Of a stretch of DNA of 48,620 nt, positions 11,110-48,620 are shown in pieces. The notes below the pieces were generated by a model that was not told the DNA's origin, searched no databases, and was given only the letters and a program-made list of their open reading frames with translations. Source of the DNA: a virus; IMG/VR virus record IMGVR_UViG_3300025141_000159, positions 1 to 48,620 of that record; one strand, written 5' to 3'. Numbering within the stretch: the stretch's first letter is position 1; each line of letters starts with the position of its first letter. The translations under genes and the position numbers were made by a program.

Positions 11110-11168
11110 TCAATACCTTTCTCTATTTCAATGTATTCTCTATCTTCTTTTTCTCTGAACATTCTGGT

Positions 11169-11522: not shown

Positions 11523-11537
11523 AAAACCCCCTATAGA

Positions 11538-14082: not shown

Positions 14083-15047
14083 AACTCATCTATCTCCTTA
14101 AGAAATCTAACTATAGCAGATTGCCATGTTGGTAGTAATTCAGTTTGTGTATTAACAATAGCAGAATACATAGCTCTTTTTGCTCCATCATAATGCTTAC
14201 TACTAGTTATTGCTTTAAGAACTTTGCTGGGATTATAGCCTTTTAGTTCTACTATGAAATGTGCCAAGTCATACCAAGTTAAATCACCTTGATTGACTAA
14301 GTGATATACAGTGCCTAATTGAGATATATCTTTCTCCAACAGTTTAACAAGTGCTCTAGCGATATCTACAGTATATCCTACATTCATTACTTGATCAACA
14401 ACGACTTCAAGTTCTTTGTCATTTTCTAGCTTATCTAGAATAACCATTGGAAAGTTTGTGTTATTCTTAGCTCTACTACCAGTCTTCCCAAACAAACCAG
14501 CAACTCTAATATTTGTATAGCTATCACACTCATTAGCAACTGTAGTTTCACCAGCAGCTTTTATGATTCCATACATATTAGTTGGTGACATAGAACTGTC
14601 TTCAGCATAGGGACCTGCTTTCTCTTGTCCACCAAAAACATAATTTGTAGAAATATTGATAAAAGTTGTATTATGCTTATTGCATAATTTAGCTATCCTG
14701 CTTGGTGCAACTACATTAACCTCAAATGCTCTTGAAGGATCTGATTCTATATCATCTACTGAATGGATAGAAGCTCCATTGATATAGATGTCAGGATCAT
14801 GATTTTCAAATAGTACTTTAGTTGCAGTGTCATCTGTTATGTCCCATTGTTGTCTGTTACACGAATGCAGAGTTAAATGACCACCTTTGCCTGACAAATG
14901 AGTTTTCTTATTAGAAAAATTGTTTGTAGTAGTAAATCCTGTAAGGGAGTGGACAATCAAATTATGTTCATGAACTTTATCAATAATGTCATTCATGAGT
15001 TGTCCAGCGCAACCACTCATTAAAATTGTTTTCGAACCATTAATCAT
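14079..15047 (-). CDS. RmlD-like dTDP-4-dehydrorhamnose/sugar-nucleotide reductase
   Basis: 322 residues of the RmlD branch of the SDR family. The N-terminal motif is MSGCAGQLMNDI. WDITDDTAT (the typical 'D-I-T-D' strand) is near residue 68. YINGASIHSVDDIESDP followed by AFEVNV matches RmlD's 'NAAAYT.VD.AE..' block. Catalytic STNYVFGG and YGIIKAAGE follow, and later VDQVMNVGYTVDIARAL. RmlD reduces the 4-keto sugar in deoxysugar synthesis with NADPH. Next to a cupin epimerase it suggests a 6-deoxysugar or modified heptose. RmlA and RmlB are not recognisable in the window, although one of the two SDR proteins might act as the dehydratase. Confidence 0.85.
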   Translation of the reverse strand: MINGSKTILMSGCAGQLMNDIIDKVHEHNLIVHSLTGFTTTNNFSNKKTHLSGKGGHLTLHSCNRQQWDITDDTATKVLFENHDPDIYINGASIHSVDDIESDPSRAFEVNVVAPSRIAKLCNKHNTTFINISTNYVFGGQEKAGPYAEDSSMSPTNMYGIIKAAGETTVANECDSYTNIRVAGLFGKTGSRAKNNTNFPMVILDKLENDKELEVVVDQVMNVGYTVDIARALVKLLEKDISQLGTVYHLVNQGDLTWYDLAHFIVELKGYNPSKVLKAITSSKHYDGAKRAMYSAIVNTQTELLPTWQSAIVRFLKEIDEL

Positions 15048-15525
15048 GTATACTCACTTTCATTGAAAAATCAATTAACTCATCAATCTTATCAATCAAG
15101 TCATTACGTTTCTTGTTGTCAATTGAAACTGCATCGGCAGCTGCAAGTCTTTCTTTGTCACTAAGAGTCGTATCTCTTCTTTTGTCTTCTAGACCCCATA
15201 AGTTTCCATTAACTATATCTAATAGCAAAATCAAACTAAGCAAATCAGAAGTGCGATCTTCTTTAACATCTTTGTCATATACTTTATGCTTCTTAAATAT
15301 TGCTGGTCTTTCTTTATTTCCTATTGAAACAATTATTCTACCAAGCTCTCTTATCAACCAACCTCTTTGGTTATTCAATTGCACAAGTGTTTTATCTAGA
15401 TTGTTAATACTAACATTTGATTTAAGTTCAAGATCTAGATTTAGATTATTTATCTTTTCATTGATGCTACGCATTCGTTTTTCTAGAATGCTTAACTTGT
15501 CAAATATACTACCCACTGTCTCCAT
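15040..15525 (-). CDS. DUF4254-like protein linked to glycan synthesis
   Basis: 161 residues, helical. Its N-terminus VGSIFDKLSILEKRM matches the 'IxxLIDKLSIVxxK' start I associate with DUF4254. LNNQRGWLIRELGRI (about 51-65) corresponds to the conserved 'LNxQRNxLIxEID' helix. The family is found beside or fused to glycosyltransferases in bacterial surface-polysaccharide loci, with no proven activity known to me. Its position directly upstream of the RmlD-like reductase fits this. It overlaps its neighbours by 8 bases or fewer. Confidence 0.6.
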   Translation of the reverse strand: METVGSIFDKLSILEKRMRSINEKINNLNLDLELKSNVSINNLDKTLVQLNNQRGWLIRELGRIIVSIGNKERPAIFKKHKVYDKDVKEDRTSDLLSLILLLDIVNGNLWGLEDKRRDTTLSDKERLAAADAVSIDNKKRNDLIDKIDELIDFSMKVSIHD

Positions 15526-15761
15526 TATGAAACCTCCTCATATATTAGATCAAACTCATCTTTAGCTATAGGATAAGGGAAGCCCCTTGCATCAATTGCA
15601 AGATAACCATCTTCACATTTCATTATGCCCTCTGCTGTTTCTACTTCAAAGGACTCATACATTCTACAAGCTTTAGTAGTAGTTTTCTTTTTGAACATCT
15701 TCCATTCCCTGTCAAAGATAACATCACCTGATTCAAGTACCTCTTTAGTTATTCTAATCAT
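15525..15761 (-). CDS. Small conserved phage protein
   Basis: 78 residues. The second half (GIMKCEDGYLAIDARGFPYPIAKDEFDLIYEEV without gaps, residues 45-77) resembles small phage proteins of the type '...GDYxV...G..YPI..D.F...Y', whose role is unknown. The N-terminus is basic. It is the first gene after a short intergenic stretch with a promoter-like motif, so it may begin a transcription unit leading into the RmlD/cupin genes. Confidence 0.55.
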   Translation of the reverse strand: MIRITKEVLESGDVIFDREWKMFKKKTTTKACRMYESFEVETAEGIMKCEDGYLAIDARGFPYPIAKDEFDLIYEEVS

Positions 15762-15780
15762 AATGCAACTTCCTTATCTA

Positions 15781-15809
15781 GTTATAAGCACATTTAGTAT
15801 TGCTTTAAA
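15781..15809 (-). promoter_or_regulatory. Candidate phage promoter (TTTAAA-17-TATAAC)
   Basis: On the minus strand TTTAAA (15809-15804) is followed after 17 bases by TATAAC (15786-15781) within GCTTATAA. It lies about 20 bases ahead of the ATG at 15761, in one of the few free intergenic spaces. A very similar arrangement occurs at 18798-18769, and GCTTATAA also occurs in the gap at 22836-22899. Recurrence in the only spacious gaps supports a shared promoter. Confidence 0.45.
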
Positions 15810-15825
15810 CAGTTATAGTATAAGT

Positions 15826-18297
15826 TTATTTTTTCCATGCTTTAACAAAAATGCCTTTCCCTGTATCTTGAAGATGCTCATATTCAAATCCAGTTTCTAG
15901 CATCAGATAATCAAATGACTTATTCGTAGGAATCCAAGTATATTCTCCCTTTCCCATTGTCTGCCATCTATGCCATTTGTTTCTAGCATCTTCTTCGTCG
16001 AATGAAGGGCAGTCGATGAAGAGTAGGCCGTTGTTATTCAAAACTTTTTTACAAACATTTAGAAATTCTACAGGATTAGAAATATGTTCTAAAGTTTGGT
16101 TACAAGCTAGTATATCAAATCTATTTGCATCATCTTTATATCGCTCAGCAAAATCTCCTTTTACTAATCGCGGTAGCATTAGCTTGTTGTCATCAGTGGT
16201 ATCATGATTCTCGATCAGATCATCAAATAGTTCTATACCTTTATCGATAGATTTCTCATTAATATCGATACCATAAGCATGAAACCCTTTTTGTAGCGCT
16301 GCTTTAACTACCAATCCGATACTACATCCAACATCAAGAAATGTTAAACCACTCTGCATTCCACCAAGTTTCTTCTCCATTTCTTCATAAACAGTATCTA
16401 CAAAGGGGATCGAGTAATCGTTAAAGACCTGTTCCCATCTTTCGGAATATTCTTTGTGCAATTCATCTGTTTGATCTGGATGATCTTCAGGAATTTCTCT
16501 TTGAATGAGATCCATCTCTTCTTCCCTATAATACGAATACCCAGGAATATTAAAGTAAAAACTAGTGGGCTTGCCAGAAATAATAGAATTCGGCTTAGAC
16601 GTAAACTTCTCAATTGCTTTGATAACATGTTCGGCTCCTATAGCTGACATGCAAATACCTTGATTTTCATTTACACACGTAGGAACAAACGTTATAGAGT
16701 TTCCGTTTCTTAAGAAAAATGATTTGTGCTTGCAACCCAAGCACTCAAGTGAGTTATCTTGAACATAGAATACATTTTCTCTATTTGGATTAGATATATA
16801 TGGCAATGCAGCACCAGCAATCAGAATCCTGGGGATATTAAGCGCACTTGCTATATGCATCGGTCCATTGTCTGTCCCAATATAAAATGCACAGTTCTGT
16901 ATTAATGCAACCATATTGTCTAAACTACATTTATGGTATTTTGCATCAACGGCTGTTACGTCATATCCAGGTTCAACTACTGCATAGTTCATCTCCTTTA
17001 AATACTCAATAACTTTAGCATAACTCTCCTTTTGCCAAGTCTTTCCCATCCAACCTGATCCATCACCAACTACTACAACATACGGTTCTTTTGGAAGGTA
17101 GGCACTATAGTCATCCACCATCTTAGCAAACTGTGGAATCTTGTCTTTCCAATCATCGAATTCTACACCACAAGCTGAAGCATAAGCATCAATGAATGGA
17201 GTATCAATTCTAGATTCATATGCTAAATCTAAATCGAACTTCACTTGACAATCAGAATCTGCTAAACCATCCTGAAGCAAAGCATTTTCATCAATCTTCA
17301 CTACCTCGTTGGGCTCATTTTTGAAGTATTTTACTACGTCTGGTTTTGCAGTGAAGAATGTTAGCTCTGCTTCAGGATATTTTTGTTTGAGTTTCTTTAT
17401 AATTGGCTCACATAGAACGACATCACCCATTCCAATTGTTCTTTTCAAACCAATTGAGTTAACGCCTTCTGTAGTGCTTATGATGTTTCTTATATTATTA
17501 TTATACTCTTCATCTAGAAAAGCATTACCCATAACAGTTGGAATTGATCTTACAACTTCAATATTTCCATCAACCAGCTTGTTCTCTTCTTTCAATTCAG
17601 CATTAGCAGGTCTTCCAATTTGCTTCTCTACACCCTCAGGTGTTTGGCTATCTTCTTGTTCACCACCAAACTTAATCCACTGTGCTATCGTTATTTCTTC
17701 AGGCATTACTCCAACTACATTATCCTCAGTCCATTTCTTTATTATTCCTGAGGGTTCGAAAAGTTTTTGCCCATCTTTCTCAACTATACAAGACTCCCAA
17801 TCAACTGTTATACTTCTATGATGACACAATTCATCAACAATTATTTTCTCAAGTGGTGGCGGATTCTCGATCCTAAATCCAATAGTGTTTAAGGGATGAT
17901 CTGGATTATCAACGTCCCTATATTCTATATGACTAAGTGACCATTTGCATTTCTTCTTTTGCTTGAGTTCTTTAATATGTGCTTGTATATGTCTAGGAAA
18001 CCACAAGACATTAGTAACAGTCTTATAGAAAATGAATTCACCTTTTGCTTTTTTAACAACGTCATTTATATAAGACACACCTTGCTCTGATTGCTTGAAA
18101 CTGATCTTCCAGTTGTTCTTATACTTTTCTTTCAACTCAGTGAAATCAAAAGAAGCACATACAATCAACTCAAAATTTTCATGTATCTGTTGTAGAATAT
18201 TATTTATTGAAGCTCTAGTCTGTTCAACTTCAGTATCTTCAGCTAAAAGAATTATAGAAGCTAAAACATCATCGAATCTATTACTATTAACTTTCAT
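15826..18297 (-). CDS. Three-domain GT2-GT9-methyltransferase fusion
   Basis: 823 residues in three parts. Residues 10-200 look like a divergent GT2 domain (VLASIILLAEDTEVEQTRAS, then KGEFIFYKTVTNVLWFPRHI), with the DxD region degraded. Residues 280-565 are a heptosyltransferase-like GT9 domain: IGLKRTIGMGDVVLCEPII at 282-300, then VVVVGDGSGWMGKTW, and the donor loop FYIGTDNGPMHIASAL at 471-486. Residues 650-823 are a class I SAM methyltransferase: FLDVGCSIGLVVKAAL at 653-668, GIDI at 676, and FDILACNQTLEHISNP at 728-743. Such a protein could transfer a heptose-like sugar and then methylate it. It is preceded by a 7-base gap and a small conserved phage gene. Confidence 0.85.
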   Translation of the reverse strand: MKVNSNRFDDVLASIILLAEDTEVEQTRASINNILQQIHENFELIVCASFDFTELKEKYKNNWKISFKQSEQGVSYINDVVKKAKGEFIFYKTVTNVLWFPRHIQAHIKELKQKKKCKWSLSHIEYRDVDNPDHPLNTIGFRIENPPPLEKIIVDELCHHRSITVDWESCIVEKDGQKLFEPSGIIKKWTEDNVVGVMPEEITIAQWIKFGGEQEDSQTPEGVEKQIGRPANAELKEENKLVDGNIEVVRSIPTVMGNAFLDEEYNNNIRNIISTTEGVNSIGLKRTIGMGDVVLCEPIIKKLKQKYPEAELTFFTAKPDVVKYFKNEPNEVVKIDENALLQDGLADSDCQVKFDLDLAYESRIDTPFIDAYASACGVEFDDWKDKIPQFAKMVDDYSAYLPKEPYVVVVGDGSGWMGKTWQKESYAKVIEYLKEMNYAVVEPGYDVTAVDAKYHKCSLDNMVALIQNCAFYIGTDNGPMHIASALNIPRILIAGAALPYISNPNRENVFYVQDNSLECLGCKHKSFFLRNGNSITFVPTCVNENQGICMSAIGAEHVIKAIEKFTSKPNSIISGKPTSFYFNIPGYSYYREEEMDLIQREIPEDHPDQTDELHKEYSERWEQVFNDYSIPFVDTVYEEMEKKLGGMQSGLTFLDVGCSIGLVVKAALQKGFHAYGIDINEKSIDKGIELFDDLIENHDTTDDNKLMLPRLVKGDFAERYKDDANRFDILACNQTLEHISNPVEFLNVCKKVLNNNGLLFIDCPSFDEEDARNKWHRWQTMGKGEYTWIPTNKSFDYLMLETGFEYEHLQDTGKGIFVKAWKK

Positions 18298-31995: not shown

Positions 31996-34953
31996 TTAGC
32001 TTTGTATTGTTGTTCCACCTTGCCCACCAAACTCGTTGTAAAGTTCATCTCTATTCCCTATAGCAAGTCTGACAACTTGTGAGGCGTTACTGAATAAGTT
32101 TGTTACTACAAAGTCTACAACACCAATTTCACCTGAAAGAGTATTCGGATCACTTGTTGCAGACTTCACCAATTCAGAGAGTTGTAGTTTGATTTGTATG
32201 TCATCTTCATCTAATTTCGAAGTGAATAAATTATCTTTCCCACTAATAACTCTACCCTTACCGTTGTCAATATCTCCCACTTCAGCTACAAAATAGTTTG
32301 TTCCATCTGAAGAACTAGGGAATTCAAACTTTATTGCAGGTTGATCAGTCTTAAATGACTTGCCTGCTCTGAGCATTTTTACAGTTCCATCGATATAACC
32401 GTTAGTGGCTGACGATGAAGCAGTAGGTGATATAAGTCTTCTTGACAACGTTATACTTACTTCAGTTGCTGAAGGTGTTGAGGGCAATATTTTTACAGGA
32501 ATAAATCTTCCAACTCTTGTTGCTGAGAATCTTGGAACATTTATTGAGTCATTATCTTTATTTGAAAGAGGCACAATTGCTTGAGAGGTTATAGTATCTT
32601 TGATAAATTCTTGCACACCATTGTTGTATTTGTAACCCTCAAAGGATGCTGTTGTTGTTCCTGAAGCAGCTGTTGAGTCGAATTCTAAGTAGTGAGTATT
32701 TATTTTAGCTGAAACAGCCTGTTGTTCAACTAAGTCATATTCCTTTCTTCTTATTTTTGGCCTCTCTAATATGTGTGGTTCAACAAGTAAACCTTTAGAT
32801 AGTATATTAGATTTCGCTGGAATAAACTGCTCCATGAATTCGAATATGCCACCAAGGACATCGTTAAAGTTGTCCATTGCATCTACAAATGTATTGATCT
32901 CAGCAATGTCTTTGCCGTTATATCTAGTAGTAACATCTTGAAGAGTGTTTTGTAGACTTCCGGAATAACTATCTTCATATAGCGCTTCCGGATCACCTAA
33001 CATATGTTTGATATTGACATCTTGTATGCAGTTTCTTATATCTCTATTAACAGCATTTATTGGAGTGAGATGTATTGATATGTCACCTGGATCATCTAGG
33101 AATTTCTCATCATCAGTAGACTGTCTTACTTTATCATTGTCTATAAACAATGCAGAAGGATACCAATGACTAAATTTCTGTTGATTTGTAAATACTTTGT
33201 ATCTCTTTGTAGATTGGTTTTCAAAGTTGATAGGGTTAGCAGTATTTCCAGCAGTAGTAGAATCAATTATGTAGTTATATCCACCTGTAAGAATAATGTC
33301 TTCTTTAAGTTTCCAATGTGCTGATAGACTTCCATAACCAGCTCCATTAGAAGCTGTTGAGTTTATAAACGATATTGATTCAAAATTTCTTACATGTTCT
33401 TTCAAATCCTCTTCTTCAAGAGGCACTGTCCAAGATCTTACTTCGTGAATGTAACCATTGAATGAGCCAGATCCTGGGAAGTAAGCTCCAAAAGAAGCAG
33501 ATCCACCCGATGAATCGAAATTAACGGCTTGGACACCTGTTGTCACTGCAGAGGCTAGCATGACAATGTCATCACCACCAGAACCAGAACCAGATAGTCC
33601 CATTGTCCAGATCTTCAAGTTGTCACCAGTTCTAGATGCTATGACGTGGATGAAGTTGTCTTTCTTCTGGATGAATGAAGATATTGATGATTGCACTGTA
33701 CTAGCTGTTGTTCCGGCTTCTACTTCAAAATGTGCTTGACCTGATGCATCTAACTTGATTTGATATAGAGGATGTTGTAATAGAATATGTTCTGTAGCAG
33801 ATGTTACAGAAACTCTTATTTCTATTGTAAAGTCTCTTGATCCATCAAAGTCTAATGCTGACACACTTCCTGTAGGCATTTGAACATACACATCACCAGT
33901 AGAGAATAATGTAGGGACATCAACTTCTTCTGGAACTTTTATCCTTCTATCTCGCTCAAGGATAGTATACTCATCAACTTTTAAGAAGTTGTGATCAACA
34001 CCGTACATCCTTCCGATAGCCTCTAAGCACTCTCTCGTCCCTTTGTTCTTAAGTATATAAGCAAGGTTGTTTACAATTCTGTTCCAAATGCTATAAGCTA
34101 TATCTTGTGTTGTAACAGCAGTTGAAGACTGCATTAGAAATGATGACAGTGCAGCATTTACAGCTGATTGGTATAGGTTTATTCCGAAGTGGTTTGCCAG
34201 AACAGGAAGGAACTTGTTTGGTGTTCTATCATGATCTTCATAGCTTGTATGCTTCAAATAAGACATCTGATCAACAAACGATTTTATTTCATCCAAACTA
34301 TCTGCAAATGCTTGTAATGTTTTTTCAAGAAGATAGTTTTCATCGTTATAGAACAATACTTCTGGTAACATGTTTCTAAACTTTGGTGTCCTTGTTACAT
34401 AACTCTCTGCAGTCCCCGCCCAAGCATAATGATCGTTTGCAGAGCCAGCACTATGTGGTACAATTTCGTAGTTTTGCTCTTCAAAGTTATGAGCTGAAGC
34501 TGAAATAGAATTTACAGTTGCTGTTTGCGAACCAGTTATAGTATTGCTTTGATCTCTTATGATGTATGTTAAATTAACAGTTTCACCTAATTGGTTTGTT
34601 GATGAAGCTGTTATAGAACTAGTTAGACTTAATTGATCTAGTAACCACAAATCAAATCCTGAAGATTCTTTTTTCCATTGGTCAACTTTGTATACGTTTT
34701 CTGCACATAACGAAGAGACATCTCCACCTGACAATCCAATTGGATATATGTTCTCAATTCTACTTAATGAATTTCTGAACTTTCTTATTGCGTCAGCAAA
34801 GAATACGTGATTAGACCATCTACCATAATCTACTGCTGGAACAACTCTTGCTTGGCTTCCTGTTAATGCCAAGTCAGCATAGTTAGATGAAGTCGATCCT
34901 ATTCCTGATAGTGACTCAATCAGCGAATTAAATGTATATCCTACTTCTGGCAT
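31996..34953 (-). CDS. gpI/gp7-like baseplate protein with LamG insertion
   Basis: 985 residues. Residues 170-345 resemble phage tail protein I: FRNMLPEVLFYNDENYLLEK, LQAFADSLDEIKSFVDQM, DHDRTPNKFLPVLANHFG, and KNKGTRECLEAIGRMYGV. Residues 365-530 are a LamG-like jelly roll (FTIEIRVSVTSATEHIL, NFIHVIASRTGDNLKI, NGYIHEVRSWTVPL). A helical region and a Ser/Thr-rich C-terminus follow. By position after gpJ/gp6 it should link the baseplate wedge to the fibres. Its start has the GAGAGA box seen at several late genes. Confidence 0.75.
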   Translation of the reverse strand: MPEVGYTFNSLIESLSGIGSTSSNYADLALTGSQARVVPAVDYGRWSNHVFFADAIRKFRNSLSRIENIYPIGLSGGDVSSLCAENVYKVDQWKKESSGFDLWLLDQLSLTSSITASSTNQLGETVNLTYIIRDQSNTITGSQTATVNSISASAHNFEEQNYEIVPHSAGSANDHYAWAGTAESYVTRTPKFRNMLPEVLFYNDENYLLEKTLQAFADSLDEIKSFVDQMSYLKHTSYEDHDRTPNKFLPVLANHFGINLYQSAVNAALSSFLMQSSTAVTTQDIAYSIWNRIVNNLAYILKNKGTRECLEAIGRMYGVDHNFLKVDEYTILERDRRIKVPEEVDVPTLFSTGDVYVQMPTGSVSALDFDGSRDFTIEIRVSVTSATEHILLQHPLYQIKLDASGQAHFEVEAGTTASTVQSSISSFIQKKDNFIHVIASRTGDNLKIWTMGLSGSGSGGDDIVMLASAVTTGVQAVNFDSSGGSASFGAYFPGSGSFNGYIHEVRSWTVPLEEEDLKEHVRNFESISFINSTASNGAGYGSLSAHWKLKEDIILTGGYNYIIDSTTAGNTANPINFENQSTKRYKVFTNQQKFSHWYPSALFIDNDKVRQSTDDEKFLDDPGDISIHLTPINAVNRDIRNCIQDVNIKHMLGDPEALYEDSYSGSLQNTLQDVTTRYNGKDIAEINTFVDAMDNFNDVLGGIFEFMEQFIPAKSNILSKGLLVEPHILERPKIRRKEYDLVEQQAVSAKINTHYLEFDSTAASGTTTASFEGYKYNNGVQEFIKDTITSQAIVPLSNKDNDSINVPRFSATRVGRFIPVKILPSTPSATEVSITLSRRLISPTASSSATNGYIDGTVKMLRAGKSFKTDQPAIKFEFPSSSDGTNYFVAEVGDIDNGKGRVISGKDNLFTSKLDEDDIQIKLQLSELVKSATSDPNTLSGEIGVVDFVVTNLFSNASQVVRLAIGNRDELYNEFGGQGGTTIQS

Positions 34954-35564
34954 ATATTCTCTCTAACGTCTGTTATCTTACCTGCTGATGGATTGTCGCC
35001 TAAATCTATAGCAACATATCTATTACCCTTCTTCATAACGTTTCCGCCATGTAAATCCCATCCTTGTATACCGATCTTCTTTATATGCAATGCAGCTTTC
35101 ATCAAGTCGTCATATAGTTTCAATGCATCTTTGCTCATGTTCTGTTTTATTGTTGCTCTTGTTTTAACTAAGTTTTCTTTTGAATTTGTGCCATTTATGT
35201 AGCTTGTAAGTTCAAGATGCATATCACTTCTTTTCTTATTTGTACCCATGTTGAAATTCTGCTCAATTATCTCATCTGTTTTCTCACCATCAATTTTCTT
35301 CAATTTGTCTATTTCAATGAAGTAAACACCTTTGATAGATTTATAGCGCCAGGCTTTGTGCACCTTGACAATATAAGGGCTTGGGTTGTCTCTAACTAAA
35401 GACATTGCTTTTGCTTCTTCTTTGTCTGTAGTAATTTTGAGAACTCTACTAGCATTTCCTTTAATTTCAAAGACACTACCGAAAAACCCTTTGCCTAGTT
35501 TCTTCCCTAATACATAACCGTCATTTTCTAGTTTAGATAAAGCTTTTTGAGTAGCTCTACTCAT
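34941..35564 (-). CDS. Protein kinase-like protein (Ser/Thr kinase fold)
   Basis: 207 residues, close to a minimal kinase domain. The glycine-rich loop is LGKGFFGSVFEI (23-34) and the VAIK-type lysine is Lys43 in RVLKIT. The catalytic loop is GWDLHGGNVM, with Asp170 and Asn175, where the usual HRD histidine is replaced. The DFG-like motif is IDLGDN with Asp187. All metal and phosphate-transfer residues are present, so activity is plausible. A region with Asn, Lys and Thr (about 100-140) is unusual. It lies between two tail-structure genes and overlaps both, so it is produced with virion proteins. Confidence 0.75.
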   Translation of the reverse strand: MSRATQKALSKLENDGYVLGKKLGKGFFGSVFEIKGNASRVLKITTDKEEAKAMSLVRDNPSPYIVKVHKAWRYKSIKGVYFIEIDKLKKIDGEKTDEIIEQNFNMGTNKKRSDMHLELTSYINGTNSKENLVKTRATIKQNMSKDALKLYDDLMKAALHIKKIGIQGWDLHGGNVMKKGNRYVAIDLGDNPSAGKITDVRENICQK

Positions 35565-36955: not shown

Positions 36956-37360
36956 CTATTTTCTCACTAGTTCAAATTCACCAGTTGGTTGTTTTGTTGC
37001 ATAATATCCCATTTTGTTAGCAAACTTGTCAATTAATCTTCTATACAATTTATTTCTACTTTTTTCTTTAGCTGTGAAATATAATCTCTCTGGCTCGATT
37101 TCTTTCAAAAATTCTGTCACTACAGCAATAACTGTAGCGAATACTCTGAACTCGTCGCCTGTATTTAATACTCCTTCTGGTTCATCATATCCGCTTACAT
37201 TTCCGAAAGATAACATCCAAGCTTCATCATCAGCACTATAAAACAAAACTATATGATATTGCTCTCCCACATCAGTTTTGAATAGAATCCCCCATTCACG
37301 TTTTGACTTCTTATGAAATTTCCATTTATATGGTTTGTTTAATACTTCATTCAATAACAT
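36956..37360 (-). CDS. MKL-leader small phage protein, paralogue A
   Basis: 134 residues starting MLLNEVLNKPYKWKFHKKSK. The centre has FYSADDEAWMLSFGNVSG and a conserved block TGDEFRVFATVIAVV followed by PERLYFTAKEKSRNKLYRRL. This block is repeated in the neighbouring gene and, from memory, in many large-phage hypothetical proteins. The function is unknown. Both the start and the preceding gene's end share the local sequence context with the paralogue, indicating tandem duplication. Confidence 0.65.
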   Translation of the reverse strand: MLLNEVLNKPYKWKFHKKSKREWGILFKTDVGEQYHIVLFYSADDEAWMLSFGNVSGYDEPEGVLNTGDEFRVFATVIAVVTEFLKEIEPERLYFTAKEKSRNKLYRRLIDKFANKMGYYATKQPTGEFELVRK

Positions 37361-37747
37361 CTATTTTCTCACTAGTATATAATCACCGTATTTTGACCTT
37401 TTTGCTTTATATCCAAGCTTGCTGCCAATAACTTTCACAAATTTGTTATACAACTTGATTCTGCTATTTTCTTTAGCAGTAAACTCAAGTCTTTTTGGTT
37501 TATGTATCTTTATAAAGTTTTTTATGATATCAATAACAGTTGCAAACACTTTAAATTCATCACCTTCACCTGATACTTCTTCATCACTATCAATTGCGAA
37601 AGCTATGCTCCATTCTCCTGGATGTTCTTGTTTGAAATCAATGTATCCTTCTTTTCCATCAACATCAAACATAGCATCCCAAAAGTCTTTTCTTTTTTCA
37701 TGCCATTTCCAGGGAAGTGGTTTGTCGAATAATTCTTGAAGTTTCAT
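37361..37747 (-). CDS. MKL-leader small phage protein, paralogue B
   Basis: 128 residues starting MKLQELFDKPLPWKWHEKRK. It shares GDEFKVFATVIDIIKNF and PKRLEFTAKENSRIKLYNKF, and the LVRK C-terminus, with the following gene. The leader, the KP-x-x-WK-x-H block and the FATV/FTAKE-x-SR block are conserved between the two, while the middle part differs. An AGAGATATCTA box precedes the ATG. The function is unknown. Confidence 0.65.
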   Translation of the reverse strand: MKLQELFDKPLPWKWHEKRKDFWDAMFDVDGKEGYIDFKQEHPGEWSIAFAIDSDEEVSGEGDEFKVFATVIDIIKNFIKIHKPKRLEFTAKENSRIKLYNKFVKVIGSKLGYKAKRSKYGDYILVRK

Positions 37748-40158: not shown

Positions 40159-41322
40159 TCAATTAATGTATTGATGATTGCTAAGGTGATCATTTATAGT
40201 TTCACGTAGTTTATTGATATCTTGTGCTATAGTTTCAATATTACCAGCAGCATTCCTTGCATTAAGAATACTCATGTCATCTATGATTGTCTTTGTTTCT
40301 GGTATATCTACAACAACATCAAAACTTACTGCTTCTTCCCCTAACTTAATACTTACTTTCTGAACACTTTTGAAAGCAGGGACTGTTTGTTGTGTTGTTG
40401 AAATTGCAATTACATCACCAGCTACATTAACTAACTGAGCAAGTTTTATGCTCATTGTATCTAGCCATTCATTTAGCTTATCACCGAGAACTTGTCTATC
40501 TAATGTATCAGATGAATCTGGTAAGGTTGATACGTTAGCTAACACTTCAGCTTCATTGTAGAAATAACTTCTATCTTTTGAATCACCATTGTCATTTTCA
40601 ATAGTTTTTACAGAGACATCACTAAGATTTGCTTTACCTACTTGTAAATTCTTTGTCTTGGTTTTTCCGATAGTTGTTCCAGGGAGTCTTTCATATCTTG
40701 TTCTTTCTTTTATACCACTTTCTAAAACTCCCTCTTGATTGACGGGGTTAAATGAATGCCTTATGAAACTATCACTTCTACCTTGCTGAATAACATCACC
40801 AGGTCTGAATGGAATTGAAAATACAGCTGCTTTTGTTTGTGTTACTTCTTCAGCTATGTCTTCAACTCTGAAATTTAATTGATATCTATACAAGCCAGGC
40901 TGTAGAGCTCTATCTTCTCTTGCTAATACTTTATTTATGTAACTAGAATCTGTTACTCTGTTTATCCAATAAAGTTGAGAACCCCATACATCTGTCTCTC
41001 TAGTTACCCAAACTTCTTCTCCAATTTCTGGTATTGATATATTATGGAATGTAAATAGAGGTATTGCCCATTTGTTTTTGTCAGCTACAGGATTTTTGCT
41101 AGATTGATCCTCTCCAATTACTTTGACAAATAAACTTCCAGGAGGGGTTACTGGTGAAGCAGCACCTTTGTCAATAGATAGATCCACCCCTAAAACTATA
41201 GCTCTGCTCAGAATAAATATCTGATCTTTGTTAGTTTTCCATCCTTCTGCAGCTTCCATGGTCTTTTTTACAAATCGTCTGGATGGGGTGACTATATTAT
41301 CTAAGCTTGGAGGCCTGTTCAT
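40159..41322 (-). CDS. Baseplate spike/hub protein with gp5/gpV-like OB fold
   Basis: 387 residues. Residues 40-130 are OB-fold-like: GSLFVKVIGEDQSS, WAIPLFTFHNISIPEIGEEV, then WVTRETDVWGSQLYWINRV. This fits the N-terminal OB domain of gp5/gpV/Mu gp45. The C-terminal half is helical and lacks a lysozyme domain or obvious beta-helix needle. The helical part (IAISTTQQTVPAFKSVQKV, then DINKLRETINDHL) may trimerise. By position between the hub and gp25-like genes it is the tail spike protein. Confidence 0.65.
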   Translation of the reverse strand: MNRPPSLDNIVTPSRRFVKKTMEAAEGWKTNKDQIFILSRAIVLGVDLSIDKGAASPVTPPGSLFVKVIGEDQSSKNPVADKNKWAIPLFTFHNISIPEIGEEVWVTRETDVWGSQLYWINRVTDSSYINKVLAREDRALQPGLYRYQLNFRVEDIAEEVTQTKAAVFSIPFRPGDVIQQGRSDSFIRHSFNPVNQEGVLESGIKERTRYERLPGTTIGKTKTKNLQVGKANLSDVSVKTIENDNGDSKDRSYFYNEAEVLANVSTLPDSSDTLDRQVLGDKLNEWLDTMSIKLAQLVNVAGDVIAISTTQQTVPAFKSVQKVSIKLGEEAVSFDVVVDIPETKTIIDDMSILNARNAAGNIETIAQDINKLRETINDHLSNHQYIN

Positions 41323-41999
41323 TAAATATCTCTAGTTTCATAGAACTCTTTTTTTGTTGCTTGATACAACATTCGAACTTTTTGAAGAGTTCTTGTAATC
41401 TTTTTCGATTGCAGTCCAGTACCTTCTCTTATATATACATAGACCTGCTTCTTATTATAAATATTAAACATATTGTAATTTTCAAGGAGGTTGACCACAA
41501 TTGAAAGAACTGATTTGTCATCTTCATTTAGATTTGTTTTATTCTCATAAGCAGATGACAGAGAATTTCTAAGAAAGTTTATGAATTCAGCGTCTTCTTC
41601 ATTCTTAACATCCTTAGTATACTCATTTATACTGAGAGTTTTTATGAGGTCGACTTTCTCATCCTCATCTATTGAAACTCTCTTCTTTGCTTGATTAGAT
41701 TTCTGTATGAGCCAGTTCTTAGTAACTGTTCCAAAAAACGAAAATGCTTTAGTCTCTCTTGTAACATCAAATTTGTCAATCCTTTCAAATAGATGTATCA
41801 TAAGCTCATCTCTTATGTCTTCAAGAGAGCCCAATGTTGTATTAAAATTATAAGTGAAAAATATGTTTTCAATTAATTCATTAAATGCAGGTCTTATTAA
41901 AATTGTAAACAAATTGTTTCGCTCATCAATACTTTCACAATGTATATAATCCTTTACTGCTTGTTCTTCTTCAGCACCAAAGTATTTCTTTTTTTTCAT
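41322..41999 (-). CDS. Late-transcription sigma factor, T4 gp55-like
   Basis: 225 residues, related to sigma70 region 2 in the way of T4 gp55. LEDIRDELMIHLFERIDKFD near residue 58, and then KAFSFFGTVTKNWLIQKSNQ near 82, match the region 2 helices that recognise the -10. The C-terminus (KQVYVYIREGTGLQSKKITR) is a helix-turn-helix-like unit. In T4 gp55 directs late transcription with gp33 and the sliding clamp, and recognises TATAAATA. I see no TATAAATA in the right orientation upstream of these genes. It lies between the hub and spike genes with its own AT-rich leader. Confidence 0.8.
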   Translation of the reverse strand: MKKKKYFGAEEEQAVKDYIHCESIDERNNLFTILIRPAFNELIENIFFTYNFNTTLGSLEDIRDELMIHLFERIDKFDVTRETKAFSFFGTVTKNWLIQKSNQAKKRVSIDEDEKVDLIKTLSINEYTKDVKNEEDAEFINFLRNSLSSAYENKTNLNEDDKSVLSIVVNLLENYNMFNIYNKKQVYVYIREGTGLQSKKITRTLQKVRMLYQATKKEFYETRDI

Positions 42000-42073: not shown

Positions 42074-44113
42074 TCATTCTTTTTCGTCAAATGATTTTCT
42101 AAGTACTGCTTCTAAAATTGTTGTATAAGAAGTTGGTGTTATTTGATCAGTGACTTGTGTGATATTATATATTCCATGTAACCTTTCTATAACACCTCTA
42201 ACAACGACATAGTTATATGCATTTATTCCAGCTGTCCCATGTATTTGTATAGTCGTCCTTTTCAAATAATGCCCTAGCAAGTTCCAGGTCAAATCAAATT
42301 CATTACTCAATGCTCTTGCAATTCTCATATAATTTTGTGAATCTTGTTGCATCAATTTGTTTGCAATAGAAGAAGCATCGACTTTATATCCTTCTACAGT
42401 TGCACCTTCATCTCTTATTCTTCTTGCACTAGCTCCCAATCTAGTGTCTACTTTATTAATTTCTCGGATAAAATCTTCAACTGTTATGTCTTTAACACCG
42501 GCAGCTAATATTGGGGAGCTATATATTTCAAAACCTAAAGAGTCCATTTTGGAAGTAAGATCGAGATTTTCACACAATGAATCATTTGTTCCAAAATTTA
42601 TCACCATTGCTTTATCAGATGTTTCTGCAAACTTGATGTTGTTTTCTATTTCAGTTTCTATATCATCAACTGTTGCACTAGCAACAAATATGTGAGTAGC
42701 TCCATCTTTAACTTTTACACCCAACTTTATTTCATTTGACAATGCATGGCTTTCTACTACTGTTCTTATGAATTCTATTATCGACATATTACTTGGGGTA
42801 AACAAACCCTCTTCACCAACTACTAGATTGTAATCTACTGGTATTTCAAACACATTAGTCAATGTTTCAGCAAACACTATATTTTGATTGTCTGTCACTG
42901 ATTTATAAAACTTGTTGTATATGTTTACTATAGATGTGTTATTCGGTATATCCTCATATTTGAAATCTAAAGCTTCTGAATTTGAATTTTGATGAACAGC
43001 ATATTTAACTAATTCTAATACCCAGCCTAAATAGAAATATTGTGGCTCTTCAGCAGTTTTCTGCTCAGGTACTGCTGGAGTTTTTTGCTGACCAGCTGAT
43101 AAGTCATCTCTGGGATTAGCATTTCGAATAGGTTGCTCATTAGTCCATCTCATGAAAGCTTCAGAACCTTGTTCTTCTAATATCTTTTGCCCCTCTTCAA
43201 ACTGGTCAATTGTTGATTCACCTAAATCACCTAAGTTTAAAGCACTATTTGCTGGTGGCGTAGGAACTGGAACAGTAGCATCTATCGTTGCTTTCTTTAA
43301 ATTTGGGTTTGTTTCTAACAAACTTTTTACATTGCCTAGTGTGTCATCTAATCTTACAATAGTATTACTTCTTGTTGCTGTATCTAAGAGGAGTTTAGCC
43401 ACATCTGTTTGTTTTTCGAGAATATCTTTTACTTCATAAGATATACCAGCAATTTTCAAAAATGTAAGCAATGAATTGTGTGGTGATGCCAAATTAATAG
43501 TGACAGCCACTTGCCCTATTTCATTGAAACTAAAATCAAATTTATATAATTTACATATTTCTGCTTTCCAATAACCTTTATTTTTACTTTTAAGATCTAT
43601 TTTTAGCAGATTCTGATTAGTGTTTTCCAATACAGGCGGCCCAACAAAGTCCCTACCACCTGTCCAACCATATATCAAAAGAAATGGAGCATTCAAAAAT
43701 ATGAGAGTTGAATATTCTGGTCTTCTATTGAAAACTTCAGGATCCATAATTGTTAATTTCAACTCATATCTTACATTAAATGCTTCTTCTGTTCCTCTTG
43801 TAATATCTAATGATTCGATACCTACAACATCATTGTCTCTGCCCGATTGAATGTCCAATGTTGCAAGAGGTGTAGCAAGTGTAGTAGTTTGATCAGCTGC
43901 ACCAAGTAAGTTAGAATCATCATTGACAAGATCTAAATTAATTACATTTCTAAATTTGCTAGCGTCTTCTCCCATACTGCTAGCTGTGTCACTGTCTAGT
44001 ATAGATATTAGATTCACAAAAGGAGTTAACCCAGATAAATCTAAATTTGAAAGTGCGCGTTTCTCATTCCAACCTTTTATAACTTCGTTTGTTACAGCAT
44101 ATAGATCACTCAT
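42074..44113 (-). CDS. Baseplate hub protein, gp27/gpD-like by position
   Basis: 679 residues. Residues 105-235 look like a beta-barrel hub domain (RYELKLTIMDPEVFNRRPEY, then FLLIYGWTGG and YKFDFSFNEIGQVAVTINL). A linker with Pro/Gln (about 320-350) precedes a C-terminal part with alternating strands and helices, ending RRTTIQIHGTAGINAYNYV near 640. I do not see a direct family signature. The gene order (tape measure, tube adaptor, LysM protein, this, spike, gp25, gp6) places it at the hub position of P2 gpD, Mu gp44 and T4 gp27, and the size allows such a fold with an insertion. Confidence 0.5.
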   Translation of the reverse strand: MSDLYAVTNEVIKGWNEKRALSNLDLSGLTPFVNLISILDSDTASSMGEDASKFRNVINLDLVNDDSNLLGAADQTTTLATPLATLDIQSGRDNDVVGIESLDITRGTEEAFNVRYELKLTIMDPEVFNRRPEYSTLIFLNAPFLLIYGWTGGRDFVGPPVLENTNQNLLKIDLKSKNKGYWKAEICKLYKFDFSFNEIGQVAVTINLASPHNSLLTFLKIAGISYEVKDILEKQTDVAKLLLDTATRSNTIVRLDDTLGNVKSLLETNPNLKKATIDATVPVPTPPANSALNLGDLGESTIDQFEEGQKILEEQGSEAFMRWTNEQPIRNANPRDDLSAGQQKTPAVPEQKTAEEPQYFYLGWVLELVKYAVHQNSNSEALDFKYEDIPNNTSIVNIYNKFYKSVTDNQNIVFAETLTNVFEIPVDYNLVVGEEGLFTPSNMSIIEFIRTVVESHALSNEIKLGVKVKDGATHIFVASATVDDIETEIENNIKFAETSDKAMVINFGTNDSLCENLDLTSKMDSLGFEIYSSPILAAGVKDITVEDFIREINKVDTRLGASARRIRDEGATVEGYKVDASSIANKLMQQDSQNYMRIARALSNEFDLTWNLLGHYLKRTTIQIHGTAGINAYNYVVVRGVIERLHGIYNITQVTDQITPTSYTTILEAVLRKSFDEKE

Positions 44114-44436
44114 TCTTTGCTATCCAATTTGTTTTTTATGTAATTAGAAATACTACTAATATTTGTTGGTATTCTTAATCTAGTTCCTGGCTCTAAAAGA
44201 CCACCGAATGGCAAGCTTAAATCATTGAGTAAACAAATTGCCCACCAATATCTACCATCGCCCAAATAGTCAAAAGCTATTTTATCGAGTCTATCACCAT
44301 CTCTGTACTCAATTATTATATCATTATTCGGGTCTTCTATTTCACTTGCTCTTACAGTAGGAAATGTCTCAAGACGTAGCACTCCTTTTGCTTCATCTCT
44401 AACTGTTCTAAATCCATCGTATCTAGATATAGCCAT
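44110..44436 (-). CDS. LysM-like baseplate protein (gp53/gpX-like)
   Basis: 108 residues with a LysM-type core: IEYRDGDRLDKIAFDYLGDG (residues 41-60), RYWWAICLLNDLSLPFGGL, and LEPGTRLRIPTN. This is the gp53/gpX pattern, in which the LysM domain binds other baseplate parts, not peptidoglycan. It has an AAGGAG ribosome site and overlaps the hub gene by ATGA. The order fits the canonical contractile tail cluster. Confidence 0.8.
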   Translation of the reverse strand: MAISRYDGFRTVRDEAKGVLRLETFPTVRASEIEDPNNDIIIEYRDGDRLDKIAFDYLGDGRYWWAICLLNDLSLPFGGLLEPGTRLRIPTNISSISNYIKNKLDSKE

Positions 44437-44480: not shown

Positions 44481-47400
44481 CTACACTAACACTAGTTCTT
44501 GCAGATCTTGTGTTCCCTCTACTGCTGGTACTTCATTGTTAGAATAGAAAGTTGAATATTGGTCAACTTCACTATCTGATACTGGAACAGCACTACCTAT
44601 TTGTCTGACATAAGAATCTTCATTGCTTTCTTTATTCCTGTTAGTCTGTATCAACCCACCGCCCATTCCTTTTGCCAAGCCCCAATAGAAGTTCATATCT
44701 CTATCTGGCATATCAGGATGAATAATTTGGTAGCTCAAAGATACTTGACAACTTACAGGCATTTTTAAGCTTTCAGTTATTTCCCATTTTCCACCAGCTC
44801 CTGAGTGGTCCCAGTTCAAACTAAGATTTCTTATATACCCTGGAACTCTTTGGAGCATGTCACCAATTGTCAATCTCACTAATGGACCAGCCCCAAGTCT
44901 ATTTACTGCTTGACCGTATGCTTCATATTGACCATATGTTTGTTGTGCTAACCAATTGACCCTTTCATAAACATTTTGAAGTTGTCTTATTGAATCAGCA
45001 AATATTACAAACTGTATATCTAATACTCTATCTGTTTCTGTGTATGTGTAAACCTTTTCAGTTCTACCAAAGAACGATTTACCAGTCCAGTTTGGTGCAT
45101 ATGATTCTTGTATCTGGTTAAGCGTAGCTTGTAAGAAACATGTTTGTTTCTTATAACCTCCTGTTGATGTTTTACGATTATCAGTCTCAAACAAGAATGG
45201 AAAATATTGTTGATTTCCTGCACCTATTACACCAGCAACATCTTGCAATGCATCTGTTTGTTGGACAGCTGGGCTAGCTTTAGGGCTGCCAGCACTAATA
45301 TTTTGTGTAAATCCTCTATCAATTCCATGAATTAATTTCCTATCATCTGCATAAGAAAACACCTTATCTAATGTGCCTTCTTCGCCGGGTGATGAACCTT
45401 CTTGTACTCCCCTCAAAGGCACACCCGACATCATTCCCTCTGGATAATCTACAGTAACCCTTCTATTGTTTGTATATAATTGATCAAATACGGGTCTTCC
45501 GTCTGCTTTTGGATGTGTAGGAGGTAGTAATAAGTTATCAATGTCTTGTAATACATCAGAAGGGGTAAGACGAGTAACTAAACCTGTGTCATCAGCTTTA
45601 CGTTCGTCATAAGGTTGTTCAACAGTCGATGTAAATTCTGAAGAATTAGAATTTGAAGCAACTGCTGTTGTTGGCGTAGGTGCCATTAATGAACTTAACG
45701 AAAGAATTCTACTTACTGGAGATGGATTATCTTCATCGCTTTTAATATATGGATTATTTCCCGAATATTCATTTTCATTGTTGGGCACATAATTTTTGCC
45801 TACATGTTTCAATTTGCTTTCTTCACCAGCAATATATGGTGCATTTTCCGTATATACATTCTCATTAGTAGATTCAAACACTTCATTTATATCTGTTAAA
45901 TTACTTTCATCACCTTTAACAACATATGGAACGTCATCTGTATAGTCATTTTTATTAGTAGACAAATGTTCTTTGCCTAAATCTTTCAATCTACTTTCTT
46001 CATCTGCAACATATGGAACGTCATCTGTATAGTCGTTTTTATTAGTAGTTTCAAATTCTTCATTCAAATCTGTTATGTCGCTTCTCTTCCCTTTGTATTG
46101 ATCAGCTCCTGTATATTTGTTTGTATTAGTGGGTACATAATTTTCATCTATATCTGTTATGTCACTCCTCTTCCCTTTGTATTGATCAGCTCCTGTATAT
46201 TTGTTTTCATTAGCATGTACAAATTCTTCATTTATATCTGTTATATCACTTCTTATCCCTTTGTATTGATCACTAATGCTATATCTATTTATTTTTATTG
46301 CTACTGTAAGAGCCCCTTGTCTAGAATCACTTGCGTCAACTAAACTAGGTTCTGTTGCAGTATTATACATATCATCACTTGTATACCTTCTCAACATCAT
46401 AGTGAGCAATAAATTTTTGAGTGGTATATTACCACTTAAAGCTCTTATATTCGATAGAACAAAAGAGCTTATGTTTGATGAAGGGATAGTTGGTTTTGTA
46501 GCTGGAGTCAAGCGCCATTGAACTAGTTCTGGAGCCAATTGTTTATCTTTTCCAATAATTGCCCCTTTTGTTTTTAAGATCTCCTGAAGTTCTTTGTTAC
46601 CACTTTCTGCACTATAAGGTTCTCTTTTACTGTAGTCTGTTGTATCATCTCTTACAATTTTAGCTTTAGCTCGATTGAGTGTATCAAATCCCTTGCTGTC
46701 TCCTGTGCTGTAAGAATCTCTTTTACTGTAGTCGTCTGTGCCATCTCTTACAATTTTACCAGTTCCAGTACCGAGTGCACCTTTAAGTGCTTCACTTCTT
46801 TCTTCACTTCTTTTTATTGTAAATAAGTCACCATGAAGAGCTTTTGAATATTGTTGAGCCCATGCAACATAAGCATCATAACCTTTTTCTCTAAATATTC
46901 TCTGTCCCTCTGTAAGTACTTGCTGTTCTGTTATTACTGGTGGTGGTGCAGTAGTTCCATGGTCTCTTTGTATTTCATAATTCACTGACAATCTTCTGAT
47001 TTGACTATCCCAAATTGTGGGTTGTATAGAAGGGTTAACCTTCATTGTCCCTGCTTTTATTCTTTTATCAAGTTCTTGTGCAAATTCAGAATATGCTGGA
47101 AACCCTCCTGATCGGAAACGTGCTATAGCTTCAGCTTCCACTTCAGCAGCAGACACCTGAGTTCTTTCAAAAAATGGAACTTCCCCTCCTTCAGCATTAA
47201 CCCTTTCGTTATTTCTATTTATTTCAGCTTCACTAACGTTTGCTCCAGTATTAACTCTTATCGGATCAGTAGATGACGTGCCTCCTGTGGTTACTACAAC
47301 TCCTCCCACTTCTACAGTTGGGGTTGGAGGAGGAGGCTTTGGTTTTGGTTTATATGTTCTAATATATTCATCTGGATCAGCAAGGTATTTATTTAGCTCA

Positions 47401-48038
47401 CCTACATCTTGAAATACATTAGCATTATAAAGTTGTAATGCTGCACTTTTAAACCCTACTGAAAGTGTTGTAAGTGAATCTTGAAATTGCTGAGCCAATC
47501 CTAATGGTGTTGCAGGCTCGACTATGGCAACTTCTTTATTAGCATCAGCTATTTTTTTTGCCCAAGCTGAATATGCACTAAAACCACCTTCATCAAATAC
47601 TTTTTTCCCTTCTGCTAGCAGTTGCTCTCTAGTTTTAGGGGGCTGAGGCTTAGATTTGTTTCTTCTAGACCAGTCTATTACCCATTTAGTGTAGCCTGAG
47701 GGTCCTTCACTATTTATTATATTCATTGCAGCTATAGCATCTGATTCACTTATTCCAGGAAGTTTTACCTTTATTTCTTCTAATGTATACTGTTTGAATT
47801 TTTTTCGTTTCTCTCTTTCTGCTTTTTGACGAGCTTGAAGATCTGATTTAGCTTTTTCTTTTTCTGCTTTTTCTGCATTAAATTTTATTCTTTTTTCTGC
47901 TTTGATAGTATCTGTTGCTAATATATCAGATGGCACAGTAATAGCTTTGAACTCTACTTCTGTTATCTTCTTCTGACGTTTAAGCTGCATCAATGTATTT
48001 AATGATACTCTTCTTCCGTCATAATAATATGTAGGCAT
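44481..48038 (-). CDS. Large repeat-containing tail tube/baseplate adaptor protein
   Basis: 1185 residues. Residues 1-95 are charged and helical. Residues 100-400 hold four loosely repeated 'EG-x-x-x-F-x-x-GG-F-x-AY-x-x-WA' motifs. Residues 428-475 have two KIVRD-(G/D)T-x-DYSKR copies. Residues 586-770 form 28-30-residue tandem repeats. Residues 950-1120 are the likely functional domain (TCFLQATLNQIQESYAPNW, FFGRTEKVYTYTETDRVLDI, VNWLAQQTYGQYEAYGQ, GPLVRLTIGDMLQRVPGYI). That part resembles tail-tube-adaptor/DNA circulation (Mu gp43-like, P2 gpU-like) proteins. By position after the tape measure it caps the tube at the baseplate. The repeats are not usual for that family. Confidence 0.65.
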   Translation of the reverse strand: MPTYYYDGRRVSLNTLMQLKRQKKITEVEFKAITVPSDILATDTIKAEKRIKFNAEKAEKEKAKSDLQARQKAEREKRKKFKQYTLEEIKVKLPGISESDAIAAMNIINSEGPSGYTKWVIDWSRRNKSKPQPPKTREQLLAEGKKVFDEGGFSAYSAWAKKIADANKEVAIVEPATPLGLAQQFQDSLTTLSVGFKSAALQLYNANVFQDVGELNKYLADPDEYIRTYKPKPKPPPPTPTVEVGGVVVTTGGTSSTDPIRVNTGANVSEAEINRNNERVNAEGGEVPFFERTQVSAAEVEAEAIARFRSGGFPAYSEFAQELDKRIKAGTMKVNPSIQPTIWDSQIRRLSVNYEIQRDHGTTAPPPVITEQQVLTEGQRIFREKGYDAYVAWAQQYSKALHGDLFTIKRSEERSEALKGALGTGTGKIVRDGTDDYSKRDSYSTGDSKGFDTLNRAKAKIVRDDTTDYSKREPYSAESGNKELQEILKTKGAIIGKDKQLAPELVQWRLTPATKPTIPSSNISSFVLSNIRALSGNIPLKNLLLTMMLRRYTSDDMYNTATEPSLVDASDSRQGALTVAIKINRYSISDQYKGIRSDITDINEEFVHANENKYTGADQYKGKRSDITDIDENYVPTNTNKYTGADQYKGKRSDITDLNEEFETTNKNDYTDDVPYVADEESRLKDLGKEHLSTNKNDYTDDVPYVVKGDESNLTDINEVFESTNENVYTENAPYIAGEESKLKHVGKNYVPNNENEYSGNNPYIKSDEDNPSPVSRILSLSSLMAPTPTTAVASNSNSSEFTSTVEQPYDERKADDTGLVTRLTPSDVLQDIDNLLLPPTHPKADGRPVFDQLYTNNRRVTVDYPEGMMSGVPLRGVQEGSSPGEEGTLDKVFSYADDRKLIHGIDRGFTQNISAGSPKASPAVQQTDALQDVAGVIGAGNQQYFPFLFETDNRKTSTGGYKKQTCFLQATLNQIQESYAPNWTGKSFFGRTEKVYTYTETDRVLDIQFVIFADSIRQLQNVYERVNWLAQQTYGQYEAYGQAVNRLGAGPLVRLTIGDMLQRVPGYIRNLSLNWDHSGAGGKWEITESLKMPVSCQVSLSYQIIHPDMPDRDMNFYWGLAKGMGGGLIQTNRNKESNEDSYVRQIGSAVPVSDSEVDQYSTFYSNNEVPAVEGTQDLQELVLV
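45723..46283 (-). repeat. Tandem 84-90 bp repeats encoding 28-30-residue units
   Basis: Inside the adaptor protein, the plus-strand motif ccctttgtattgatca recurs at 46089, 46173 and 46257, exactly 84 bases apart. The encoded units read YxGADQYKGKRSDITD-like in the first three copies. They then drift to YTDDVPYVxxxES in three to four 29-30-residue units, keeping the T/S-N-x-N-x-Y joint. In all there are about seven copies over residues 586-772. Confidence 0.85.
46839..47741 (-). repeat. Dispersed WA-motif repeats within the adaptor protein
   Basis: Residues 100-400 of the large protein contain four related segments: around 104-124 (EGPSGYTKWVIDW), 142-161 (EGKKVFDEGGFSAYSAWA), 302-321 (EAIARFRSGGFPAYSEFA) and 376-395 (TEGQRIFREKGYDAYVAWA). 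They share the pattern Glu/Ala, Phe, Gly-(F/Y), Ala-Tyr and Trp/Phe-Ala, separated by low-complexity linkers. They look like a small repeated helical domain. Confidence 0.6.
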
Positions 48039-48076: not shown

Positions 48077-48620
48077 TTACTGTTGCGCCATTTCAAAGAA
48101 GTTCTCAGATACTACTGCTGAAACTCTTCTTCCATCCATTACAATTGGCCTATTTGCCAATGCTTGTATATCTTTTCTTAAACCATTTATTGCACCAAGT
48201 AAATCATTACTTCCACCTCCACCAAGAGGTACAACTGCTTCTGGTCCTGATTCTCCTACAACAGCAAGTGTAGGTCTACTGACAATTCCACCAGCAGCCA
48301 TAGCTGGAACACCCCATATCTGCGCAGAACGTTGTAATGCCCAATCTTTCCAGTTGGCTGTTCTTGCCATTTGCTTTTCTTCTTTTTCTTCACCGCCTTT
48401 AACATTATACTTTGAGAATCCATCTTTAGACCCGGGAACATATCCTCCAGCAAATCCTAAAGATTGATTAATTCTTTTAATTTCTTTTTTCTTTACTTTA
48501 TCTCTTAATTTATATCTATTTGCAAATAGATGTGCTAGTAATGCTGGGTGCCAAGATGTTTCTATTGTAGCTTTCTTTCCTAGTCCAAACATCCTACCAA
48601 CAGCACCGGCAGATCCTTTT
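48077..48620 (-). CDS. Tail tape measure protein, C-terminal part (5' end beyond window)
   Basis: The frame is open across the right edge, so this is the last ~180 residues of a longer protein. It has the C-terminal signature of tape measure proteins, AAGGIVSRPTLAVVGESGPE followed by AVVPL near residues 95-119. A basic, Gly-rich preceding region (LGFAGGYVPGSKDGFSK) and a terminal helix (LLGAINGLRKDIQALANR) follow the usual layout. The tape measure sets tail length and is ejected on DNA entry. The next gene downstream is the tube adaptor, as expected. Confidence 0.85.
   Translation of the reverse strand, partial: KGSAGAVGRMFGLGKKATIETSWHPALLAHLFANRYKLRDKVKKKEIKRINQSLGFAGGYVPGSKDGFSKYNVKGGEEKEEKQMARTANWKDWALQRSAQIWGVPAMAAGGIVSRPTLAVVGESGPEAVVPLGGGGSNDLLGAINGLRKDIQALANRPIVMDGRRVSAVVSENFFEMAQQ

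Follow-up and report, generated by a model that had tools for sequence, protein, structure and literature searches.

In a widespread group of uncultured phages, a predicted tail-tube initiator carries a long N-terminal arm that has been built by repeated, independent tandem duplication. In related phages, this arm holds other repeats, differing from group to group, and this points to a tether whose length can be adjusted. All tube-initiator structures that we compared are compact, while the arms in this group reach ∼2,200 residues; if the arms matter, the base of contractile tails would have a component that has gone unrecognised. The initiator domain itself belongs to a known type of protein. 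For the arm with its repeats, Pfam and PHROGs gave no matching family, and the literature that we searched describes neither arm nor repeats. The stretch of DNA that we analysed, here called the window, is a 48,620-base IMG/VR virus fragment, in one protein of which an earlier note had pointed out tandem repeats (Table 1).

Table 1. Features of the array-bearing gene and its neighbours in the window
Feature	Position	Strand	Residues	Basis or remark
Gene of the array, predicted tail-tube initiator with ∼950-residue N-terminal extension	44481..48038	-	1185 aa	ORF/translation, C-terminal fold, synteny
Predicted tail-tube initiator barrel	44631..45203	-	946-1136	AlphaFold2 core pLDDT >90 and Foldseek (6j0n_b, 9qgl_7A, 8kea_P, 5iv5_BE)
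Stretch without predicted secondary structure save some short helices close to the C-terminal side	45207..46829	-	404-944	Holds the array; AlphaFold2 pLDDT mostly 24-44, shallow alignment
Repeat unit 1	46206..46289	-	584-611	NRYSISDQYKGIRSDITDINEEFVHANE
Repeat unit 2	46122..46205	-	612-639	NKYTGADQYKGKRSDITDIDENYVPTNT
Repeat unit 3	46038..46121	-	640-667	NKYTGADQYKGKRSDITDLNEEFETTNK
Repeat unit 4	45951..46037	-	668-696	NDYTDDVPYVADEESRLKDLGKEHLSTNK
Repeat unit 5	45861..45950	-	697-726	NDYTDDVPYVVKGDESNLTDINEVFESTNE
Repeat unit 6	45774..45860	-	727-755	NVYTENAPYIAGEESKLKHVGKNYVPNNE
Repeat unit 7	45687..45773	-	756-784	Degenerate past first half
Lone joint YTSDDMY and spacer up to array	46290..46385	-	552-558 (joint)	
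Two further 32-residue units, joints YSKRDSY and YSKREPY	46539..46730	-	437-500	Joint search; self-similarity at lag 32 (residues 428-476)
Helix-hairpin motif, four copies	46827..47756	-	95-128, 138-170, 298-331, 372-404	Consensus roughly EGxxIFxxxGFxAYxxWAxxI
Tape-measure gene, 3' end	48077..48592	-		Frame open to window edge; PHROG tape-measure matches
gp53-like LysM baseplate protein	44110..44436	-		Directly downstream of initiator; phrog_7145 baseplate wedge subunit E = 2.6e-11, LysM E = 0.0023

By modelled fold and gene order, the C-terminal barrel of the window protein is a predicted tail-tube initiator. When modelled with AlphaFold2 from 38 aligned C-terminal domains, its core reached pLDDT values above 90, and Foldseek matched the model to a Pvc7-type initiator (6j0n_b, E = 1.3e-7), to Anabaena phage A-1(L) (8kea_P, E = 6e-7) and to T4 (5iv5_BE, E = 6e-5), with further matches to 9qgl_7A and the Afp chain 6rao_G. 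The barrel and the solved initiators have a tube-type beta-barrel fold in common (E values of 1e-7 to 6e-5, TM scores of about 0.4 to 0.5). A tape-measure-like open reading frame lies directly upstream of the initiator gene in the window and in most of 80 related loci, and a gene for a gp53-like LysM protein of ∼100 residues follows it in nearly all of these loci for which flanking sequence is available. The fold matches and the gene order thus bear out, in kind, the assignment of the earlier note, which had spoken of a baseplate or tube adaptor.

Alignment with T4 gp48 and gp54 by hhalign was weak (E = 0.15 and 0.45, respectively), so that homology to gp48 is suggestive only, and a single one of 40 family members matched the "baseplate tail tube cap" family phrog_230 (E = 0.21). 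Neither Pfam nor PHROGs gave an informative match for the window protein or its relatives, and PDB sequence searches with the window protein and two profiles gave no match. Apparent matches of the homologue from Microcystis phage Mel-JY01 to WDGH, W2 and other families were sums over its repeats, with no single stretch passing alone, and were rejected. We also dropped VrlC of pelagimyophages and cyanophages as a possible identity, since this baseplate protein substitutes for T4 gp7 (PMC7029224) and a gp7 substitute does not fit a tube initiator.

Several other genes of the window deserve mention. A possible sigma-70 region 2 protein (41322-41999), which might be a sigma factor for late transcription, is encoded inside the baseplate operon (E = 0.0098, which misses the Pfam cut-off), and a small protein encoded among the tail genes (34941-35564) looks kinase-like by eye (GKGFFGSVFEI...DLHGGNV...IDLGD), with no Pfam match at 0.01. 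Two neighbouring paralogous open reading frames of ∼130 codons lie at 36956-37747, the second of which matches DUF6934 (E = 2e-7). Sugar and surface-modification genes occupy 9544-18297, including a family 2 glycosyltransferase, an NAD epimerase/GDP-mannose dehydratase-like protein and a heptosyltransferase-methyltransferase fusion.

The array itself consists of seven tandem units of 28, 28, 28, 29, 30, 29 and ∼29 residues (residues 584-784; window 45687-46289). Tandem Repeats Finder reported it as two overlapping arrays, one at 46025-46272 (period 84, 84% matches, score 361) and one at 45807-46071 (period 87, 71% matches, score 231). At the protein level, the self-similarity score at lag 28 was 191, while 30 shuffles reached 29.5 at most, and the joint Y[ST]xxxxY occurred 10 times, compared with a shuffle mean of 0.39 and a maximum of 4. 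Three of these joints lie upstream of the array, with their first codons at 46730, 46634 and 46385; the former two belong to the pair of 32-residue units. We thus conclude that the repeats are real and far beyond chance.

Several details of the earlier description needed correction. The three "exact 84-base periods" are exact in the spacing of units 1 to 3, but their sequences have pairwise DNA identities of only 74%, 76% and 86%; the gene is on the minus strand, which puts these 84-base units at the N-terminal end of the array (46038-46289). The "three to four" diverging units of 29 to 30 residues proved to be four, the last of about 29 residues. A T/S-N-x-N-x-Y joint had been described for all units; four of the six inter-unit joints do read T-N-x-N-x-Y, but the other two begin with A-N or N-N. 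The array had been placed at 45723-46283, and its true span is slightly longer.

Among the window units, DNA divergence ranges from 14 to 57%, and dS is about 1 or more, that is, near or beyond saturation, for several unit pairs, indicating that the array is old. In three independent unit pairs pooled, pS was 0.39 and pN 0.23 (Fisher p = 0.04), suggesting modest, marginally significant constraint at the protein level.

The array makes up more than one-third of a stretch of ∼540 residues (404-944) for which the full-length AlphaFold2 model contains only a few short helices, all after residue 825. Ahead of this stretch, predicted helices (residues 45-128, 137-170, 297-328 and 371-402) coincide with the copies of the hairpin motif, which score 53 to 63 bits against a profile made from the same four copies. 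A single weak match to this motif, EGQKILEEQGSEAFMRWT (E = 0.7), is present in the neighbouring hub open reading frame (42074-44113). The full-length model was built from 11 sequences and has low overall confidence, with even the barrel scoring poorly; with so shallow an alignment, the low scores of the array argue only weakly for disorder. The array also falls on the disordered side of the charge-hydropathy plot, and its region is acidic (net charge of -21 across residues 600-800). The earlier suggestion of a flexible tether is thus backed by prediction.

Relatives were collected by searching IMG/VR with the C-terminal domain, using as seeds Mel-JY01, Flavobacterium phage immuto and LR756508, which yielded 80 loci out of 225 matches. 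A profile of the close clade added 18 new loci with 49 to 63% identity, so that about 100 IMG/VR loci were examined in all. A single-sequence IMG/VR search with the whole window protein returned no relatives, no same-species relative was found, and a scan of genome contigs gave no match. In four of the collected loci (L016 to L019), barrel and extension lie in different frames, the upstream open reading frame ending in DFIPFKFKDAVNNK; this frameshift may be real or sequencing derived.

The extension varies in length from almost none (in L016) to ∼2,200 residues. Clear tandem repeats are present in 24 of the 82 distinct members of the tree, or about one-third of the distinct members with a complete N-terminus, and their units measure 15, 17, 28, 39, 41, 42, 44, 47, 49, 57, 60, 61, 68 or 93 residues. 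Phage immuto has a 68-residue duplication. The arrays sit in the same extension, and their unit sequences are mostly unrelated between groups. The tree requires at least 14 changes between the repeat and the no-repeat state, indicating that arrays came and went many times. Copy number also shifts by whole units between close relatives: L064 lacks exactly one 42-residue unit that L058 and L084 have, and L118, which is 92% identical to L115, lacks one 44-residue and two 20-residue units that L115 has. The earlier note had proposed that copy number may vary between isolates, and such variation is seen here among relatives. The remark that such repeats are not typical of tail tube adaptors is therefore right for the characterised initiators but not for this uncatalogued family.

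The closest relatives of the window protein have extensions of 380 to 520 residues without its 28-residue array. None of the other complete members of its clade has this array, and L092 to L094 have a two-copy 93-residue repeat instead. Neither of the two observations that the earlier note had named as refuting was made: the divergence of the window units makes a simple collapse or expansion of identical copies unlikely, and relatives with other arrays exist, although the nearest relatives lack the window's own unit. A profile of this unit found nothing in the relatives above shuffled controls. Two candidate origins of the unit were rejected because the unit profile did no better than shuffles: an amplified block of the clade (KYTHRNNYVK in L092, SKYTYDNDYV in L090), which had looked good by eye and in a MAFFT alignment, and the RYGSDKPYITK peptide that is conserved at the N-terminus in the immuto group. 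A 39/44-residue unit of the NATGFT type is common to L020, Mel-JY01, L072 and others; with a profile built from the L020 units (E < 0.01), seven members had 13 to 20 units each and the window protein had none. The initiator of L020 (5290-10047), with ∼16 copies of a 39-residue unit, also gave an OmpA-like match past its barrel, at an E value (0.0006) that does not reach the cut-off. A peptide of the LIDLxSDLS type occurs within the first 30 residues in 36 of 76 relatives, compared with a shuffle mean of 0.67, and is absent from the window protein. In much of the family, both ends are therefore conserved and the middle is free.

Conserved ends and a variable middle suit a tether, and the reading that we favour, at about even confidence, is that the array-bearing arm is a flexible tether, which repeated tandem duplication has lengthened while the protein sequence was under modest constraint. 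According to this model, the C-terminal barrel would form the first ring on which the contractile tail tube grows, as its fold and synteny suggest. The arm ahead of it would consist of helix-hairpin modules near the N-terminus followed by the ∼540 residues predicted to be disordered, in which the array would serve as an adjustable spacer, lengthened by tandem duplication in a tolerant linker. With six subunits per ring, for which T4 and A-1(L) provide the precedent, there would be six arms per baseplate, which would keep the helical N-terminal part tied to the tube base while the tail is assembled or in the finished particle. The tyrosine joint might be retained because each unit acts as a weak sticker or sets the compactness of the chain. 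Against a tether, the closest relatives manage without the array and the window protein lacks the LIDLxSDLS peptide, a candidate N-terminal anchor.

Alternatively, the linker may be little constrained, with recombination or replication slippage making repeats come and go without any specific function. We regard this near-neutral expansion as a possible but distinctly less probable account. The wholly different unit sequences of most groups, the sister lineages with and without arrays (the L058 group and L054; L074 and L081) and the lack of any counterpart of the window unit above shuffles in relatives would all be expected from it. It accounts less readily for the tyrosine joint kept over 7 to 10 copies in the window with pN below pS (p = 0.04), for the 39/44-residue unit that is recognisable in very divergent phages with 13 to 20 units each, and for arrays of up to ∼680 residues kept in compact genomes.

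The location of a tape-measure-like gene immediately upstream in most loci raises the question whether six acidic arms hold or chaperone the tape-measure protein at the initiator ring before the growing tube encloses it. The acidity of the window array region, the |net charge| of 0.32 per residue of the LR756508 array and the length of the extension in the 44-residue group, 1.45 to 1.50 times that of the tape measure in eight of eight phages (L112, L115, L116, L118, L122, L038, L051 and Mel-JY01), are in line with such a role, which we nevertheless consider rather unlikely. Many arrays in other members are uncharged, and the relation between extension and tape-measure length in the window's own clade is, if anything, negative. 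Over the family, the two lengths are weakly correlated (raw rho of 0.32 to 0.38; contrasts r = 0.44, p = 0.027), compared with r = 0.97 (p about 0.03) for contrasts within the 44-residue group. The arm could even be imagined as a second, repeat-encoded ruler or sleeve, with six arms that run next to the tape measure along the tube as it grows. Each tube ring would then correspond to roughly one unit in phages with 39- to 44-residue units, tail length and repeat number would co-evolve, and the window lineage would have, in its 28-residue array, a young or incomplete form of the ruler. However, the tape-measure length differences among L115, L118 and L122 lie in a low-complexity Gly/Thr-rich C-terminal linker and not in the helical body, which also speaks against the holding role; together with the reversed relation in the window's clade, this means that a second ruler is not the best reading, and we consider it very improbable.

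The suggestion that the repeats form a host-contact surface found no support. An adhesive arm exposed at the baseplate, of a length suited to the cell surface, might well have aromatic, Asn/Thr-rich repeats whose copy number varies between relatives, yet no adhesin, lectin or glycan-binding family was matched, the OmpA-like match being confined to L020 and lying beyond its barrel. Moreover, initiator rings are located inside the baseplate (PMC10966104), and a LamG-containing protein and other candidate contact proteins are encoded by separate genes in the window, all of which makes this role highly unlikely. Although the array is tandem DNA in a metagenomic contig, its origin by repeat collapse or expansion during assembly is the least credible possibility of all, since the ∼600-base array is not made of identical copies, with units at least 14% apart in DNA, its frame is intact over 1185 codons, and analogous arrays occur in independent contigs.

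Among known systems, gp18 of the Anabaena myophage A-1(L) (PDB 8kea; PMC10966104) has the same barrel fold (Foldseek E = 6e-7) and works with a small LysM protein, the counterpart of which in the window is the next gene. The barrel of gp18 starts at Ser2, with an alpha/beta domain after it (PMC10966104), whereas in the window protein ∼950 additional residues, repeats included, precede the barrel and no domain is confidently recognised after it. T4 gp48 and gp54, the platform for tube growth (PMC3004832), resemble the window protein in their position after the tape measure (29-48-54), in the fold match to 5iv5_BE and in a weak gp48 profile alignment; at 364 and 320 residues, they lack arrays, and their sequence homology to the window protein is not significant. 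The best fold matches to the barrel were initiators of the Pvc7/Afp7 type from extracellular contractile injection systems (6j0n, 9qgl and 6rao), whose matched chains, however, have only 223 to 224 residues and no long N-terminal repeat arm. Another long initiator, still uncharacterised, is that of Microcystis phage Mel-JY01 (WWT39329.1; 2,255 residues in total), with a C-terminal domain homologous to that of the window protein (25% identity, E = 5e-12), the same gene order and 44-residue tandem units in its extension, the sequence of which is unrelated to the window unit. Since cultured hosts exist for Mel-JY01 and for Flavobacterium phage immuto, the role of the arm is testable.
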